IMG/VR virus record: IMGVR_UViG_3300030109_004897
Location: 1-50,594 of that record
DNA from: a virus
DNA length: 50,594 bases
Strand: one strand, 5' to 3'
Shown here: in pieces, positions 33,602 to 47,852 of the stretch
How positions within the stretch are numbered: position 1 is the stretch's first letter
How the letters are laid out: every line of letters starts with the position of its first letter
Program-made: the position numbers and the translations under genes
The notes under the pieces: generated by a model
Told to the model about the DNA's origin: nothing
Database searches by the model: none
What the model saw: the letters and a program-made list of their open reading frames with translations, nothing else

Positions 33602-33651
33602 ATTGTAAATATATAACAATTATTTTTTACCATAAATGTGACACAATAAAC

Positions 33652-33690
33652 AAAAAAAAGGGGTGTTAAACAAACAAAAAAACACCCCCT
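33652..33690 (-). terminator. Intrinsic terminator
   Basis: GGGGTGTT (33660-33667) pairs with AACACCCC (33681-33688) over a 13-nt loop, and read leftward it is followed by a run of T. It ends the transcript of the nuclease-like gene (stop at 33734). Confidence 0.85.
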
Positions 33691-33733
33691 CTTAATTAGT
33701 CAATATGAAAACCCCTAGACCAATATAAACATT

Positions 33734-34336
33734 TTATTTTAAGTAATCCCCAATAACAGACAAACCAACATTCCTAGGTGAACGCTTTATATCAGTAACC
33801 AAATACTCACCAGGATAAAAATTCATCCCAAACATAGTCGGTATCTTAAACATATTAACATAAACCCCCTGAGTAGCAAACAACCAATTAATCTTCAACT
33901 GAGCATAACTCGTCATATTATTCTGATTGTGAACAGGCTTTATCTCTACATGACTCACCAACCTACTACCCAAATGATACAAAGGCTTATTATTACTCGT
34001 CAACCTCTCCTTATCCACATAATCATAATAAAAAACACCCTCAGCCTTCTGTGTCCACTCAACCTTGAAATCAGGAGTATAAACAGTAGGCTTTATCAAC
34101 CTCTCACACTTATGATTAACCTTCGTCTTTAAACGCTCCTCATACAACTTCTCATAACCACCATACAACTCAAACGTAGTATACTCATACCAAACATTAT
34201 CAACATACCCAGCATCACACAATTCACTCAACCAACACAAATAAAACAACTCCTCATCAGAACGCAAACAATCCAAATCTATCTCTGGGAAATTACCATT
34301 AACCCACTTTGCCACACTCGGCACAATTTTTCTCAT
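33734..34336 (-). CDS. PD-(D/E)XK nuclease-like protein
   Basis: About 200 aa, beginning MRKIVPSVAKWVNGNFPEID. I use the ATG at 34336, although a GTG at 34342 is possible. The segment VYTPDFKVEW is followed about 45 residues later by HVEIKPVHNQNNMTSYAQLK, giving a P-D-F ... E-I-K spacing typical of the PD-(D/E)XK fold as in small phage endonucleases of the DUF1064 type. Metal ligands would be the Asp of PDF and the Glu of EIK. A role in Holliday-junction or packaging-related cleavage is possible. It overlaps the upstream gene by about 40 bases. Confidence 0.6.
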   Translation of the reverse strand: MRKIVPSVAKWVNGNFPEIDLDCLRSDEELFYLCWLSELCDAGYVDNVWYEYTTFELYGGYEKLYEERLKTKVNHKCERLIKPTVYTPDFKVEWTQKAEGVFYYDYVDKERLTSNNKPLYHLGSRLVSHVEIKPVHNQNNMTSYAQLKINWLFATQGVYVNMFKIPTMFGMNFYPGEYLVTDIKRSPRNVGLSVIGDYLK

Positions 34337-35747: not shown

Positions 35748-35763
35748 TAAATGTGTCACCTTG
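35748..35763 (+). promoter_or_regulatory. TAAATGTGTCACCTTG element, rightward
   Basis: TAAATGTG differs by one base from the Bacteroidota -7 consensus TAnnTTTG and is followed by TCACCTTGAAACCC. It is one of a family of similar elements in this window. It points to the first rightward gene about 230 bases downstream. No -33 element at the standard distance is clear, so it may be a phage-specific promoter or a protein-binding site. Confidence 0.45.
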
Positions 35764-36766: not shown

Positions 36767-36949
36767 GAGAAAAAAATTAAATATTCAAACTATATTGTGT
36801 AAAAAGCTATAAAAGTGAATATTACCTTTATGGTGTCAGTTAACCATAGTTTTAAAAAACAGTTTAGAAAAAAACTAAAAGTATAGACAAATAAATTATT
36901 ATGTTATATGCTGTATTCTTATATGGTATACTTGTAAGGTGGCATATAT

Positions 36950-36965
36950 TAAATGTGTCACCTTA
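36950..36965 (+). promoter_or_regulatory. TAAATGTGTCACCTTA element
   Basis: Same core as the element at 35748 (TAAATGTGTCACCTT). A TTG lies 15 bases upstream. It precedes the tRNA-like fold by about 80 bases and could drive its transcription. Confidence 0.4.
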
Positions 36966-37046
36966 CCTATATATAGTTAGCAATCAACTGAAAATTGCAA
37001 TCGTATTGTTTAACAGCTTGCAAGCGATGATAAACAAAAAAGCTAA

Positions 37047-37103
37047 AACCCTCAGACAAATTTTATATGGTGTCTCCTGTAAAGTTCGAACCTTTAGAGG
37101 GTT
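37047..37103 (+). ncRNA. tRNA-like fold (57 nt, D-arm missing)
   Basis: The 3' part is a textbook T-arm: TAAAG-TTCGAAC-CTTTA (37080-37096) with the conserved G53, TTC, R57, A58 and C61 positions. It is followed directly by GAGGGTT (37097-37103), which pairs perfectly over 7 bp with AACCCTC (37047-37053) as an acceptor stem. The 26 nt between holds one hairpin, AGACA...TGTCT, with a 12-nt loop, so a D-arm plus anticodon arm of normal size cannot fit. It may be a reduced tRNA, a tRNA-like regulatory RNA, or an attachment-site remnant of a tRNA gene. No CCA is encoded. Confidence 0.45.
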
Positions 37104-37149
37104 TCTATATTAAATGTGCAATGTCGCACAAACTAAAACCCCAAACAAA

Positions 37150-37374: not shown

Positions 37375-37444
37375 AATAACTATATTAGTAAAAGGTAAAT
37401 TGTTCAGCCTATAAAGTGAACCTATAATATAAAATTCTATTACA

Positions 37445-37750
37445 ATGGAAACAACGTACAACAACGGTCAAACTATATTAGTTGACGACAGAACAGAACA
37501 ACAATTCGAAACACACAAAATCCTGATCACTGCCACCGATAAATTTATGTCTGGATGGGGTAAAGGAAAAGGTGGTTCAAAATGTGCATGGGCTTGTAAA
37601 AACTACGCTGATGCAGATAAAGTTTTGGAATGGGTAGAGTCTAGAAGTGAAATGAAATACGTAAACATAAACTATACGGGTAAGTGGCGACCTAAAAATG
37701 CTAGTCATGTACATATATACGTGGTTAATGATGATCATCCTGCATTATAA
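37445..37750 (+). CDS. Hypothetical phage protein with an MSGWG motif
   Basis: A 101-aa protein. The central part FMSGWGKGKGGSKCAWACKN followed by VLEWVESRSEMKYVNINY resembles a widespread hypothetical family of phages and mobile elements with an MSGWG motif near the middle and a W-x-x-x-R-x-M motif after it. The function of that family is not known to me. It is the last gene before the first 36-bp leader copy. Confidence 0.55.
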   Translation: METTYNNGQTILVDDRTEQQFETHKILITATDKFMSGWGKGKGGSKCAWACKNYADADKVLEWVESRSEMKYVNINYTGKWRPKNASHVHIYVVNDDHPAL

Positions 37751-37782
37751 TAAATGTGTAACCTTAAAAACAAACAATCATG
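37747..37782 (+). repeat. 36-bp leader repeat, copy 1
   Basis: A 36-base block from ATAATAAATGTGTAACC through CTTAAAAACAAACAATC to the ATG of the next gene. It is identical to copies 2 and 3 and differs by one base from copy 4. It contains TAAATGTG, close to the Bacteroidota -7 box, and places the ATG 30 bases after its start. It combines a promoter-like core with an A-rich ribosome-loading leader. Confidence 0.85.
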
Positions 37783-38493
37783 AAAACAATAGAACAAGTA
37801 TTACAAGAACTCTTCACAGAAAACACAGGAAAACACTTTTTAGATAGTGGTGGAACTGATGGAAGAGCATGGCAAAGAAATCAAGAACGTGACTTTGAGT
37901 CAGAACCTGAAGCCACTATAGAATATTGGGACGATAAATTCCAATACGCAACCGTAAACACTTACCATTACTTCAAAAAAGTATTAGAATATGACGAAGT
38001 GTGTGAATCTGTAAACGAATACCTACGTGAAAACAATATACATTGGGCAGGAGAAGTAGAAGAAAACGATTTAGAGGACCATATAGCGACTTTTTCAGAG
38101 TATTATGAAGTAGAGTTCAAAGGTGAACAATGGAACACTTACAACGAAGAAAACAACACAGACCACGTATTCCAAGGTCAACGGGTTACTATAGACGGTG
38201 AACCATACGTATTATTACAGCTTCATCTAGGTGCTGATGTCAGAGGTGGATACTCAGATGTACAACTATTCAAGCTAGAAGGCTTTTTGACTGGTTTTGT
38301 AGAACACACACTATATAATAACAAACGTGAAAACCTATCCATAGATATTAAATACGCTAATGAAATTAGTTTATACAATCATGAAGACGGTTCATACGAA
38401 TATGTTGACAATGATTGGCTAGAAGAGAATGTAAAACCTAATGAAGGATGGGAAGTTGAATTAATGATAATGGAAGATCCTTGTATTTACTAA
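37780..38493 (+). CDS. Phage hypothetical protein (DSGG...WQRN family)
   Basis: A 237-aa acidic protein. HFLDSGGTDGRAWQRNQERD (residues about 19-38) and LLQLHLGADVRGGYSDVQLF (about residues 146-165) match signatures of a common phage protein family of unknown function (DSGG-x-x-GR-x-W-x-RN and GxDxRGGY). It is expressed from leader copy 1 and lies two bases from leader copy 2. Confidence 0.6.
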   Translation: MKTIEQVLQELFTENTGKHFLDSGGTDGRAWQRNQERDFESEPEATIEYWDDKFQYATVNTYHYFKKVLEYDEVCESVNEYLRENNIHWAGEVEENDLEDHIATFSEYYEVEFKGEQWNTYNEENNTDHVFQGQRVTIDGEPYVLLQLHLGADVRGGYSDVQLFKLEGFLTGFVEHTLYNNKRENLSIDIKYANEISLYNHEDGSYEYVDNDWLEENVKPNEGWEVELMIMEDPCIY

Positions 38494-38528
38494 TAATAAA
38501 TGTGTAACCTTAAAAACAAACAATCATG
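38493..38528 (+). repeat. 36-bp leader repeat, copy 2
   Basis: Identical to copy 1, starting inside the stop region of the preceding gene and ending with the ATG at 38526. Confidence 0.85.
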
Positions 38529-38786
38529 AAAGTTACAGAAGAATTTTTTGAAGCAAGTATCCAAGGATACGAAGGAATTGAAAAAGCTAAAAAGTACGCT
38601 AAAAGCCTTGATTGGACTGAAGTAGACTACAACGAACAAACAATTTCAAATATCCAATATGAAGACACGGTGAACGGTATAGATATATACTACTGTTTTG
38701 GAACTGACGAATATCTATTCGTTGCTTCTCTTATGGGACTCACTTGCCGTAATGGTAAAAATTGGAATGAATGTAATTGTTGCTAA
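38526..38786 (+). CDS. Small hypothetical protein with Cys-rich tail
   Basis: An 86-aa protein beginning MKVTEEFFEASIQGYEGIEK. The C-terminus (MGLTCRNGKNWNECNCC) has four cysteines that could bind a metal ion, although three of the four lie in the last five residues. Its ATG lies in leader copy 2. No family is recognised. Confidence 0.5.
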   Translation: MKVTEEFFEASIQGYEGIEKAKKYAKSLDWTEVDYNEQTISNIQYEDTVNGIDIYYCFGTDEYLFVASLMGLTCRNGKNWNECNCC

Positions 38787-38821
38787 TAATAAATGTGTAA
38801 CCTTAAAAACAAACAATCATG
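38786..38821 (+). repeat. 36-bp leader repeat, copy 3
   Basis: Identical to copies 1 and 2, ending with the ATG at 38819. Confidence 0.85.
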
Positions 38822-39271
38822 ATACATTCACCAAAAAAATCAGAAAAGTATTTTGAACAAATACAAAAAGAAATAGAAGGATTTACAGACAGTTCATGGG
38901 CTAATGATGCCTGTGACTCTATTCACAACGAGAAATATGATCTATCAGTCTATTTCCCTAACTCAGATAAAGATGACTTCGAGAACGAAGAATGGTCTTT
39001 CTTTGTGGTAGACATAGATTCAGGGTTGAAACAAAAAAGAACTAGCCTATACTCTATTGAATCCGTTATCAGATTCATTAAAGAATATCAAAAAAAAGAG
39101 TTTAAAGTGTCTTGGTCTCCTCCTACATACAATGCAGAAACAAGAGAAGAAGGTATAGAACATTTCACATTTAGTAATGGATACGAACAAGAGGAAATAA
39201 ATGAAATACACGAACTAGATATTTCAGATAGAGCAACATTAAACGATATAATTATTATTAGAACCAAATAA
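38819..39271 (+). CDS. Small hypothetical early protein
   Basis: A 150-aa acidic protein beginning MIHSPKKSEKYFEQIQKEIE. It contains WSFFVVDIDSGLKQKRTSLY and a mixed alpha/beta pattern. No motif is recognised. Its ATG lies in leader copy 3 and the next gene starts 11 bases after its stop with only the 3' part of the leader. Confidence 0.5.
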   Translation: MIHSPKKSEKYFEQIQKEIEGFTDSSWANDACDSIHNEKYDLSVYFPNSDKDDFENEEWSFFVVDIDSGLKQKRTSLYSIESVIRFIKEYQKKEFKVSWSPPTYNAETREEGIEHFTFSNGYEQEEINEIHELDISDRATLNDIIIIRTK

Positions 39272-39282
39272 AACAAACAATC

Positions 39283-39822
39283 ATGAAAACAGTAATTTTA
39301 AAATTTGACGAACAGGATGTTGCAAGTGACAACATCTTCACAATAATTTCTAAAACTCATTCAGAAATTGAACAGAAAAAAGCAAATGCTAACAAGATCA
39401 ATAAAACTATTCTTAACCAGTTTGAAGACATACTAAGAGAAACAATCAGTAAAATATATTCTAAAATAACAGAAGCCGATATTGAAGGATGTGACTTTGA
39501 TTGGATAGATAATAACAGACACAGGATTCCATTTCCTGAATTTACACAAGGCAAGAACCACGTTAAAGTTAGCTTTGAAATGTACAAAACAATAAAAGCT
39601 GAAGGCGTAGGAGAATTTGAACAATGTCAAAAAATAGATGTATCTATTGTATCAAGAAAAATTAACGAAGGGTTATACGAAACCCTAGCCCCTGAGTATT
39701 ATTTTAATATATTTTCAATCGGATGTTTAGGTAATTTAGGCAATAACGGATATGACCTGGCTTCTGAACTAGAACAATCAATATGTGATAGGATAAAGGC
39801 TCTTATATATTATAGAGCCTAA
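39283..39822 (+). CDS. Hypothetical early protein
   Basis: A 179-aa protein beginning MKTVILKFDEQDVASDNIFT. It has coiled-coil or helical parts (SEIEQKKANANKINKTILNQ) and the stretch DFDWIDNNRHRIPFPEF-like acidic/aromatic core. It is preceded by AAAACAAACAATCATG, only the last 16 bases of the leader repeat, so it is probably co-transcribed with the gene before it. Confidence 0.5.
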   Translation: MKTVILKFDEQDVASDNIFTIISKTHSEIEQKKANANKINKTILNQFEDILRETISKIYSKITEADIEGCDFDWIDNNRHRIPFPEFTQGKNHVKVSFEMYKTIKAEGVGEFEQCQKIDVSIVSRKINEGLYETLAPEYYFNIFSIGCLGNLGNNGYDLASELEQSICDRIKALIYYRA

Positions 39823-39857
39823 TAATAAATGTGTAACCTTAAAAACAAACAGTCATG
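39822..39857 (+). repeat. 36-bp leader repeat, copy 4
   Basis: Same block as copies 1-3 with one A to G change (CAGTCATG), ending with the ATG at 39855. Confidence 0.85.
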
Positions 39858-40094
39858 GAAAACTTAGAAGAAAAAGCAATCGAAAAAATAACTTTTGAAA
39901 TGGTAAACAACATTCAAAGGGGTGAAACAATAAAAATAAACGAACATTTTGAATTGTATTGCTACACAGAAGGATACACAATAGGAGAAGAAGAAGATTA
40001 CGAAGAGCCTAAGCATATTATATTGTCTAAAAATGATGAAGAGTTATACTGTGTTATGACAGATGAAAGTAATGTTGTTTTTTGTGAACTATAA
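39855..40094 (+). CDS. Small hypothetical early protein
   Basis: A 79-aa acidic protein beginning MENLEEKAIEKITFEMVNNI, with EEEDYEEPKHIILSKNDEEL near the C-terminus. No motif is recognised. Its ATG lies in leader copy 4. It is followed by a shorter element, ATAATAAATGTGTGACACTC (40091-40110), that leads into the next gene. Confidence 0.45.
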   Translation: MENLEEKAIEKITFEMVNNIQRGETIKINEHFELYCYTEGYTIGEEEDYEEPKHIILSKNDEELYCVMTDESNVVFCEL

Positions 40095-40116
40095 TAAATG
40101 TGTGACACTCAATATG
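40091..40116 (+). promoter_or_regulatory. Variant TAAATGTGTGACA leader
   Basis: ATAATAAATGTGTGACACTC followed by AATATG. The first 12 bases are the same as in the 36-bp repeat; the rest differs. It precedes the gene at 40114. Confidence 0.6.
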
Positions 40117-40902: not shown

Positions 40903-40967
40903 TTTACTTTATAGTATTCTTAATATTAAAATTCTTAATCGCTTGTTTAGCATTAAGATCTAGGTAA
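40899..40967 (+). CDS. Tiny hydrophobic peptide (22 aa)
   Basis: ATG at 40899 overlapping the previous stop (ATGA), TAA at 40965-40967. The product is MIYFIVFLILKFLIACLALR plus SR, a single membrane-spanning helix with one Lys. The stop codon overlaps the start of the attC-like site. It may be the last phage gene before the cassette, or a coincidental frame. Confidence 0.3.
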   Translation: MIYFIVFLILKFLIACLALRSR

Positions 40968-41020
40968 CGCTTGTATATGAGGCGTGAGGTACGAATGACT
41001 GCATATACGTTGTTATATGC
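40962..41020 (+). repeat. attC-like site 1
   Basis: GGTAACG...CGTTGTTATATGC. The arms GTATATG and CATATAC form a stem, and the end GTTATATGC matches a GTTRRRY core site. The loop holds GCGTGAGGTACGAATGACTG. The terminal GTTATATGC is the reverse complement of GCATATAAC, which lies at the other end of the next gene (41328-41336), as in integron cassettes. Confidence 0.6.
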
Positions 41021-41391
41021 TTTTTGTTAAATAGTAAAATTTAATTAAGATGAATATATTATTTTGTTACAGCATTTATTTGGTTACTACAGATGTTGAT
41101 TTAGATAGGGGTGATAATTCGCATAATACTGGCTACCATATTGATTTTTTTGCTGATGGTGTTGAATGGGAAGGGGAGATAATAAAAGATTCTAATGAAT
41201 ATTATGTTGAATGGTTCAATGGTGGAAAATCCCCTAAAAACTATGAGTCTATTAATAAATTAGTTAATGATAATTTCGCAACTATACGAAGAGATGCTCC
41301 CATAAAAGACGTAATGTGAATTTAATTGCATATAACATAATTGTAATTGAGCTTGTGCGACTGGCGAGGTACGAGCTTGCAATTACAATTT
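41012..41391 (+). mobile_element. Gene cassette with one ORF between two attC-like sites
   Basis: The segment begins GTTATATGC and ends with GCATATAAC followed by the attC-like stem 41337-41391, so both ends pair over 9 bases as in an excised circular cassette. It holds one ORF (41050-41319) starting 38 bases after the core site. Phage genes flank it. No integron integrase is seen in the window. Confidence 0.55.
41050..41319 (+). CDS. Cassette-borne hypothetical protein
   Basis: An 89-aa acidic protein: MNILFCYSIYLVTTDVDLDR at the start, then DFFADGVEWEGEIIKDSNEY. It is probably a small alpha/beta protein. It has no known motif. Its codon use and intergenic layout (ATG close to a GTTRRRY core, stop just before an attC-like site) are those of an integron cassette rather than of the surrounding phage genes. 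Confidence 0.5.
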   Translation: MNILFCYSIYLVTTDVDLDRGDNSHNTGYHIDFFADGVEWEGEIIKDSNEYYVEWFNGGKSPKNYESINKLVNDNFATIRRDAPIKDVM

Positions 41392-41398
41392 GTTAATA
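41328..41398 (+). repeat. attC-like site 2
   Basis: GCATATAAC then a stem of TTGTAATTG with CAATTACAA, a loop containing GCGACTGGCGAGGTACGAGC and the end TTTGTTAATA. The loop matches that of site 5 (GCGACTGCCGAGGAACGAGG) closely, so they share ancestry. Confidence 0.6.
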
Positions 41399-41438
41399 AG
41401 TATTTTTTCGTATATTGAAAAAAATTAAATTTATTGAG

Positions 41439-41532: not shown

Positions 41533-41721
41533 ATGAAAGCCAAGAAAAGCACAGTAAACAAAGCTGGTAACTATACAAAACCAACAATGAGGAAAAAGCT
41601 TTTTAATCAAATAAAAGCAGGATCTAAAGGAGGTAACGCTGGAGAGTGGTCTGCAAGAAAAGCCCAAATGCTTGCTAAGAAATATAAGGCAGCAGGAGGA
41701 GGTTATAAATCTAAAAAGTAA
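41533..41721 (+). CDS. Small basic phage protein (GNAGEWSARKAQMLAKKYKAAGG family)
   Basis: A 62-aa Lys-rich protein. The C-terminal half, GGNAGEWSARKAQMLAKKYK followed by AAGGGYKSKK, is a recurrent signature of small proteins in phages and large viruses. The Gly-rich motif plus basic helix suggests DNA binding and possible packaging with the genome. It is followed 4 bases later by a related basic gene. The cellular role is unknown. Confidence 0.65.
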   Translation: MKAKKSTVNKAGNYTKPTMRKKLFNQIKAGSKGGNAGEWSARKAQMLAKKYKAAGGGYKSKK

Positions 41722-41725
41722 TTAA

Positions 41726-41968
41726 ATGGCTAAAGCTAAATCTCAGAAAAGTTTAGACAAATGGACTAAACAAAAATGGACAACAGCTTCAGGAAAAAAA
41801 TCTTCTGAAACAGGAGAAGTTTACGCTCCTAAAAAAACAATCACAAAGCTTAAATCTACTGCCGCAGGTAGAAAAAAACTAGCAGCGGCAAACAGAAAAA
41901 AAAGATTAGCAACCAAACAAGGCAAGCAACACGCTAAACATGGTTTGCACAAAGGGAAAAAAAGATAG
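41726..41968 (+). CDS. Small basic phage protein (DUF5872-like)
   Basis: An 80-aa Lys-rich protein: SLDKWTKQKWTTASGKKSSE, then GEVYAPKKTITKLKSTAAGR. The patterns W-x-K-Q-x-W, GE-V-Y-x-P-x-K-x-I and a terminal HAKHGLHKGKKR are typical of the DUF5872 type that occurs in many virus genomes. It is likely to be a DNA-binding virion or early protein. It lies in the same cluster as its neighbour and may work with it. Confidence 0.65.
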   Translation: MAKAKSQKSLDKWTKQKWTTASGKKSSETGEVYAPKKTITKLKSTAAGRKKLAAANRKKRLATKQGKQHAKHGLHKGKKR

Positions 41969-46976: not shown

Positions 46977-47852
46977 ATGATGATCAAATCAAATAAAAAT
47001 ATATTTTGTTCTGTATCTGCTGGTTATAGTAGTGTTATGATGGCTATTAAGTTACGTGATTGGTTTCCTGATCATAATATTATTAATGTGATGGCAAATA
47101 CAAGCAAAGAACGTAAAGAAAGTTTACATTTTATGAATGAATGTGATAAGCATTTTAAATTGAACTTGGTTTGGTTAGAGGCTGAATTTCACGAAAAAGG
47201 AACTGGTGTAACTCCTAACATAGTTACTTACGAAAATCTTAAACGTAATGGGGAAATATTTGAACAAGGGATTAAGAAGTTAGGAATACCAAGCAAAATA
47301 AATAAATGGTGTAATAGGGATATGAAGCTTGAAATACTTACAAAGTATGCTAAAAGTGTTTTTGGTAAAGATAATTATTCTGTTGCAGTTGGTTTACGAA
47401 TTGATGAAATGGATAGGGTTAGGAAAGATTATAAATCTAACAATGTTTTTTATCCTTTAATTGATCGTAAGATAAGCCAAAAAGAAAGAAATAAGTTTTG
47501 GAAAGACCAACCTGTTAAAATTAGTATTGAAGCATATAAAGGTAATTGTGATTTATGTTTTGCTAAATCTAATAGAAAACTAATTACTATAATTAAAGAA
47601 GAGACTAATTTAATTGACTGGTGGGACAGAATGATTAAGGAATACGGACAAATAAAAATAGATAGTAAGCCAAGTTATAACGATTTGTTAGAAGCTAATA
47701 ACGGAATGACTTTTTATAGAGGTTATAACACTATTGAAGATTTAGTAAAGATGTCACAACAACCTTTCACAAAAGCAACAGATGAATATATTTATAAAAA
47801 CGATTTGTTTGATTTAGAAGATGAATGTGGAAGTGGATGTAGTGTCTTTTAA
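46977..47852 (+). CDS. PAPS reductase/PP-loop ATPase-family protein
   Basis: A 291-aa protein. Residues 12-19 (VSAGYSSV) are a variant PP-loop (normally SGGxDS) for ATP binding, and HIIN-type VMANTSKERKESLHFM follows. CNRDMKLEIL and NCDLCFAKSNRKL carry cysteines that could bind a metal cluster or act in catalysis, and the C-terminus ends ECGSGCSVF. The family includes PAPS reductases and DndC-like and other PP-loop enzymes; the phage role (nucleotide or tRNA/DNA modification, sulphur transfer) is open. It is the body of one cassette. Confidence 0.6.
   Translation: MMIKSNKNIFCSVSAGYSSVMMAIKLRDWFPDHNIINVMANTSKERKESLHFMNECDKHFKLNLVWLEAEFHEKGTGVTPNIVTYENLKRNGEIFEQGIKKLGIPSKINKWCNRDMKLEILTKYAKSVFGKDNYSVAVGLRIDEMDRVRKDYKSNNVFYPLIDRKISQKERNKFWKDQPVKISIEAYKGNCDLCFAKSNRKLITIIKEETNLIDWWDRMIKEYGQIKIDSKPSYNDLLEANNGMTFYRGYNTIEDLVKMSQQPFTKATDEYIYKNDLFDLEDECGSGCSVF

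Follow-up and report, generated by a model that had tools for sequence, protein, structure and literature searches.

The closest known kind of element to the repeat described here is the Start-Associated Sequence (SAS) of Cluster K mycobacteriophages. SAS and ESAS are short repeats, found in many copies per genome immediately before the starts of unrelated small genes, in nearly one orientation, and kept across subclusters while the genes change; about half of the SAS display inverted repeats with a variable spacer. Their consensus, GGGATAGGAGCCC, is able to pair with the 16S rRNA, and their function is unproven (PMC3203893). L5-type stoperators are asymmetric sites of ~13 bp, located in short intergenic spaces and in one orientation, bound by a phage repressor that blocks elongation (PMC9283540). 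Early genes of phage P23-45 are preceded by a conserved AT-rich motif, the promoter of the virion RNA polymerase (PMC10770324). The promoters of Flavobacterium johnsoniae carry a -7 box, TAHHTTTG, and AT-rich tracts at -18 and -28, a -33 element not being evident; in this organism, which is devoid of Shine-Dalgarno sequences, translation initiation is raised by A at -3, -6, -12 and -13 (PMC6847099). The known leaders have a median length of 24 nt (PMC9723704).

The window, i.e. the whole stretch of DNA analysed, is a 50,594-base virus record; the phage probably has a Bacteroidota host. According to the portal, terminase and muzzle proteins, the nearest phages are the Flavobacterium elemo phages and the Cellulophaga phages phi38:1 and phi18:3. 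The structural genes are leftward and a cluster of small genes at 37-41 kb is rightward; the latter are called early from their position and from their strand, opposite to that of the structural genes. Searches of the window for tRNA, tmRNA and Rfam families gave no reliable match. A 36-bp block, ATAATAAATGTGTAACCTTAAAAACAAACAATCATG, stands at four joints of this cluster (Table 1), in copies that differ by at most one base and that precede genes without any common family. These are the only full copies in the whole record, all on the + strand, and the backwards control contains none. Furthermore, the two halves of the block, with up to three mismatches, are found 11 and 6 times versus means of 1.4 and 1.1 in 100 dinucleotide shuffles, the observed counts exceeding those of every shuffle. 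The four copies, the single-base change in the last one, the truncated form before 39283 and the variant before 40114 had all been reported in the initial annotation and were all located. Related records were found by DNA patterns: G002, G005, G006, G003 and G001 (short, with a single early joint) belong to the same clade, G004 is near-identical, and G010 is more distant, its large late protein being ~28% identical.

Table 1. Genes, block copies and related sites in the window
Feature	Position	Strand	Remarks
TAAATGTG sites in late genes, antisense	7860, 8076, 13812, 17508, 18857, 20500, 27968		
TAAATGTGTCACC in divergent non-coding region	35748..35760	+	upstream of rightward genes
Hairpin GTAAGGTG..CACCTTAC	36934..36966	+	module A TAAATGTGTCACC (36950-36962) in loop and 3' arm
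TAAATGTGC, then TGTGC-N6-GCACA hairpin or near-palindrome (type III leader)	37111..37130	+	upstream of first small gene
Small gene	37445..37750	+	101 aa, phrog_5423, no assigned function
Copy 1	37747..37782	+	from stop of 37445-37750 to ATG of 37780
Gene 3' of copy 1	37780..38493	+	237 aa, phrog_11344, no assigned function
Copy 2	38493..38528	+	between 37780-38493 and 38526-38786
Gene 3' of copy 2	38526..38786	+	86 aa, phrog_33881, no assigned function
Copy 3	38786..38821	+	between 38526-38786 and 38819-39271
Gene 3' of copy 3	38819..39271	+	150 aa, family search without match
Module B alone, AAAACAAACAATC	39270..39282	+	before gene 39283, without module A
Gene with module B only	39283..39822	+	179 aa, family search without match
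Copy 4	39822..39857	+	CAGTC for CAATC (A to G near end); between 39283-39822 and 39855-40094
Gene 3' of copy 4	39855..40094	+	79 aa, family search without match
Module A variant TAATAAATGTGTGACA	40092..40113	+	variant core 40092-40107; overlaps stop of 39855-40094; next ATG at 40114

The block is made of two modules that also occur apart. At 28 joints from six genomes, the TAAATG of module A, TAAATGTGTRACCTT, starts only at -2, +1 or +4 relative to the end of the stop codon that lies upstream; module A therefore carries or abuts this codon, a link even stricter than the overlap with the preceding stop that had first been noticed. Besides these, a match at +13 corresponds to a TAATTGTG that occurs by chance. 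A logo of 38 sites extends the module to TWATAM-TAAATGTGYRACnTT; as these sites were picked by TAAATGTG, the invariance of the latter in the logo is partly circular, whereas the flanks are free of that choice. Additional TAAATGTG sites, beyond those initially listed, are present at 35748, 36950 and 37111. At joints, module A is found in one orientation only. In the whole genome, 20 TAAATGTG sites are on the + strand and 2 on the - strand; TAAATGTGTnACC, with at most one mismatch, has 15 matches on + and none on - in the window, and the same + bias is observed in G002, G005 and G006. The hairpin that includes the 36950 site is conserved and shows compensatory changes in relatives at 4 of its 16 pairs. 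The position of the 35748 site is kept as TAATTGTG in G005 and G006, where the ATG is lost and TAnnTGTG is kept, and apparently also in G010.

Module B, AAAAACAAACAATC and its kin, is always flush with an ATG. It carries A at -3, -6, -12 and -13 in all four blocks, and the two block copies that were folded have no stable fold; the blocks thus display both the A positions and the little structure of the A-rich translation start regions of Bacteroidota. It is also used without module A, before the gene at 39283 and, as AACAATCAATC, before several early genes of G002. Its interpretation as a translation leader of the Bacteroidota type, which would replace the Shine-Dalgarno sequence and enhance translation, is well supported by these sequence features. 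The gene at 39283 and many early genes of relatives carry the A-rich leader only, so that the whole block is not, as had been proposed, reset in front of every gene. In the early region of G010 (L163), at least six of the early genes are headed by another repeated leader, AAATCCTAGAAATAGGTGTAAAATT-ATG.

TAAATGTGY is kept at early joints, in the orientation of the early genes, in six related records; lack of conservation in related phages had been named beforehand as evidence that would speak against a regulatory block. In five near relatives and a distant one, most joints between early genes carry module A, the genes on either side being different. In G010, the core is TAAATGTGC and its TAA is, at most joints, the upstream stop codon itself. 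Three types of joints can be distinguished. In type I, module A is followed by module B, the ATG being 29 nt on. In type II, it is followed by a long hairpin, TGTGTRACCTTGAG..CTCAAGGTTACACA, with an ATCCTC loop that could pair with a downstream GAGGAT (a putative pairing, spotted by eye), and the ATG is 73-74 nt on. In type III, it is followed by TGTGC-N6-GCACA, with the ATG ~40 nt on. The hairpins of types II and III show hardly any compensatory changes. The genes of 101, 237, 86 and 179 aa are also found in G002, with other genes interposed and the block retained after each; the block is therefore a seam of gene-content change. Outside these records, TAAATGTGTnAC is absent from the cultured phages phi14:2, elemoF, phi38:1 and phi18:3, a scan of bacterial genomes with a 20-mer gave a single isolated match, in Mucilaginibacter, and the motif is absent from contigs encoding distant relatives of the 201-aa early protein. 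A broad scan with TAATAAATGTGTNACC returned mostly unrelated contigs.

The core is also found, on the same strand and therefore antisense to the genes, inside late genes, 8 times versus 1.0 expected from synonymous codon shuffles, and TAAATGTG ranks 2nd among all 8-mers in the window and 12th to 30th in three relatives. Several of these sites encode GDTF peptides and two correspond to a repeat within one protein; the excess may therefore be a peptide effect. Antisense matches of the GDTF type are also found in many other viral contigs. As GDTF peptides explain part of it, the excess was not accepted as proof of a genome-wide polar signal.

The reading that we favour, at a probability just short of even, is that the block is a composite gene-junction element, i.e. 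a promoter-like core and a translation leader, reused as a gene-swapping boundary. Module A would provide the core, in the form of a variant flavobacterial -7 box, giving each small early gene or gene pair its own transcription start ~13-18 nt before the ATG, and module B would provide the translation start region. Being present at many joints, the block would also be a homologous seam allowing gene exchange, presumably by recombination, between related phages. A promoter plus a translation leader, as first put forward in the initial annotation, is the most economical reading; its translation half stands (A positions, contact with the ATG, use alone), and its promoter half is plausible and only moderately supported by the sequence. 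Indeed, TAAATGTG fits TAHHTTTG at 7 of 8 bases and keeps five of the six near-invariant bases of this box, T-7 being replaced by G, so that the sigma-A box is not matched in full. Like flavobacterial sigma-A promoters (PMC6847099, PMC9723704), the joints display a short A-rich leader and may have AT-rich upstream tracts, but they also carry a conserved downstream extension, YRACnTT, and their start is a predicted one. An AT-rich/trough/AT-rich spacing sets the joints weakly apart from gene ends taken as controls (p 0.016-0.035 by permutation for the sites that have coding sequence upstream, the windows having been chosen after seeing the profile). The predicted leaders, ~16-18 nt, are within the normal range of known values, and the 35748 copy of the core, which lies in the non-coding region preceding the first rightward genes, also counts in favour of a promoter. 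Two genes of G010 have their start 13 nt downstream of the core; if the latter is a promoter, their mRNAs would therefore be nearly leaderless. Against a promoter, a spacing of 4-5 nt would put the start at a pyrimidine in the copies of the window, many joint forms are RNA hairpins that a promoter does not need, and the sites inside late genes would point antisense. No TTG (-33) is found at a fixed distance from the core. If the core is a -7 box, changing TAAATGTG into TAAATTTG would be expected to raise RNA.

Other transcription signals were considered at the same place. Canonical host promoters, TTG-N18..22-TAnnTTTG, have matches mostly inside genes and none at the block, and were rejected as its promoter. 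An intrinsic terminator was rejected as well, since the blocks of the window lack a stable hairpin followed by a U run and type II hairpins are mostly devoid of a U run. The joints share with the P23-45 virion RNA polymerase promoters (PMC10770324) a conserved AT-rich motif before early phage genes; however, the clade of the window differs in that no conserved DxDxD signature of a phage RNA polymerase was found in the large proteins of these records, which may be incomplete, the search having recovered the DFDID of phi14:2 as a positive control.

Module A might alternatively act in the RNA, its stop codon followed by AUG-UGY forming a termination-reinitiation site that includes a tiny leader ORF, for a gene-to-gene hand-over of translation or for tuning by hairpins. 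Such a relay, which we consider unlikely, would account for the AUG found 0-6 nt after the upstream stop at 28 joints, for the mini-ORF MCNLKNKQS* of copies 1-3, which ends with a TGA overlapping the following ATG (ATGA), and which stays short in type II (MC[ND]LE*), and for the several joint forms that are hairpins, one of them with compensatory changes. However, the frame is broken in relatives, by an extra A that fuses the mini-ORF to the gene (G005:54308), by ACG (G006:37004) and by ATGTGA (G003:13638), and the mini-ORF of copy 4 extends beyond the gene start; a conserved peptide is therefore improbable. Moreover, the first position of codon 3 is the most variable, unlike what peptide selection would give, the core is also present in non-coding DNA without an adjacent gene, and F. 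johnsoniae avoids AUG near starts (PMC6847099). It is doubtful to a still greater degree that TAAATGTGY would be a multi-purpose joint signal of this phage clade only. Such a signal would combine a stop codon, the beginning of the following expression unit and a seam for recombination, and its RNA form would be recognised as a stop-start relay, together with exchangeable hairpin modules (none; a long hairpin with a possible pseudoknot; a short TGTGC hairpin); if this is true, gene cassettes could plug in without a new promoter.

A site for a DNA-binding protein of the phage or of the host, acting as an operator or as a stoperator-like silencer through single sites or inverted pairs, seems rather improbable too. 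Like the described L5 stoperators (PMC9283540), module A is an asymmetric site of ~13 bp, located in one orientation at gene boundaries with short intergenic spaces; types II and III contain inverted pairs, TGTGCAACGTTGCACA is a perfect palindrome in G010, the same-strand excess extends to late genes, and a Crp-like HTH protein is encoded by the phage at 43182-43973. Nevertheless, its sequence differs from that of stoperators, no repressor or lysogeny gene was identified among the scanned proteins, the half-site spacing ranges from 0 to ~27 nt, the copies in late genes may come from the common GDTF peptide, and the orientation at the start of the late operon does not follow gene direction. Lastly, the block could be a recombination seam without any regulatory role beyond translation, module A being the hitch-hiking 3' end of the upstream gene. 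The differing genes found in each relative between conserved flanking genes, with the block retained, fit this reading, but a hitch-hiker would neither retain an invariant 8-bp core in the clade of the window and in the distant G010 alike nor persist in non-coding DNA at 35748, and we regard it as very unlikely.

Taken as a composite junction element, the block shares with SAS and ESAS (PMC3203893) its short length, its many copies just upstream of the starts of unrelated small genes, its nearly single orientation, its inverted repeats with a variable spacer (here in types II and III and in the hairpin 36934-36966) and its maintenance while genes change. It is not a member of this family by sequence, GGGATAGGAGCCC being unrelated to it; furthermore, SAS and ESAS are not tied to the upstream stop codon, unlike the block, whose ATG-adjacent part is A-rich, as expected in Bacteroidota. 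Little is known about the control signals of Bacteroidota phages, and a joint signal that is short, dense and found throughout a clade makes promoter use and translation start testable. The block would illustrate how a phage keeps swapping small early genes, each with a working start, and would be a ready part for Flavobacterium genetics.

Several other features of the window deserve mention. At 33633-33760, a terminator-like hairpin for the leftward genes is followed by TAAATGTG on the + strand and by a conserved stretch that precedes the initial ATG of the late operon. Just upstream of a module A, a tRNA-like element (37047-37103; acceptor AACCCTC/GAGGGTT, T-arm TAAAG-TTCGAAC-CTTTA, no D-arm seen), for which ARAGORN and Rfam gave nothing, shows compensatory changes at 7 of the 12 pairs of its two stems in six genomes. 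In the leader of the 101-aa gene (37385-37446), a small GTTCA/TGAAC hairpin shows compensatory changes at 3 of its 5 pairs among relatives. The DNA at 41539-41818, which spans ORFs 41533-41721 (phrog_17747) and 41726-41968, is 67-76% identical to that of pelagiphages and HMO-2011-type phages of alphaproteobacteria, and the gene at 46977-47852, whose product resembles PAPS reductase (phrog_424), is possibly an auxiliary metabolic gene. Integron attC-like hairpins (40903-41049 and 41320-41430) lie on both sides of a small ORF (41050-41319); at this place, G001 and G002 harbour other genes between hairpins whose ends are GCCTAAC and GTTAGGC, and the region 40903-41430 resembles integron-type gene cassettes, here carried by a phage.
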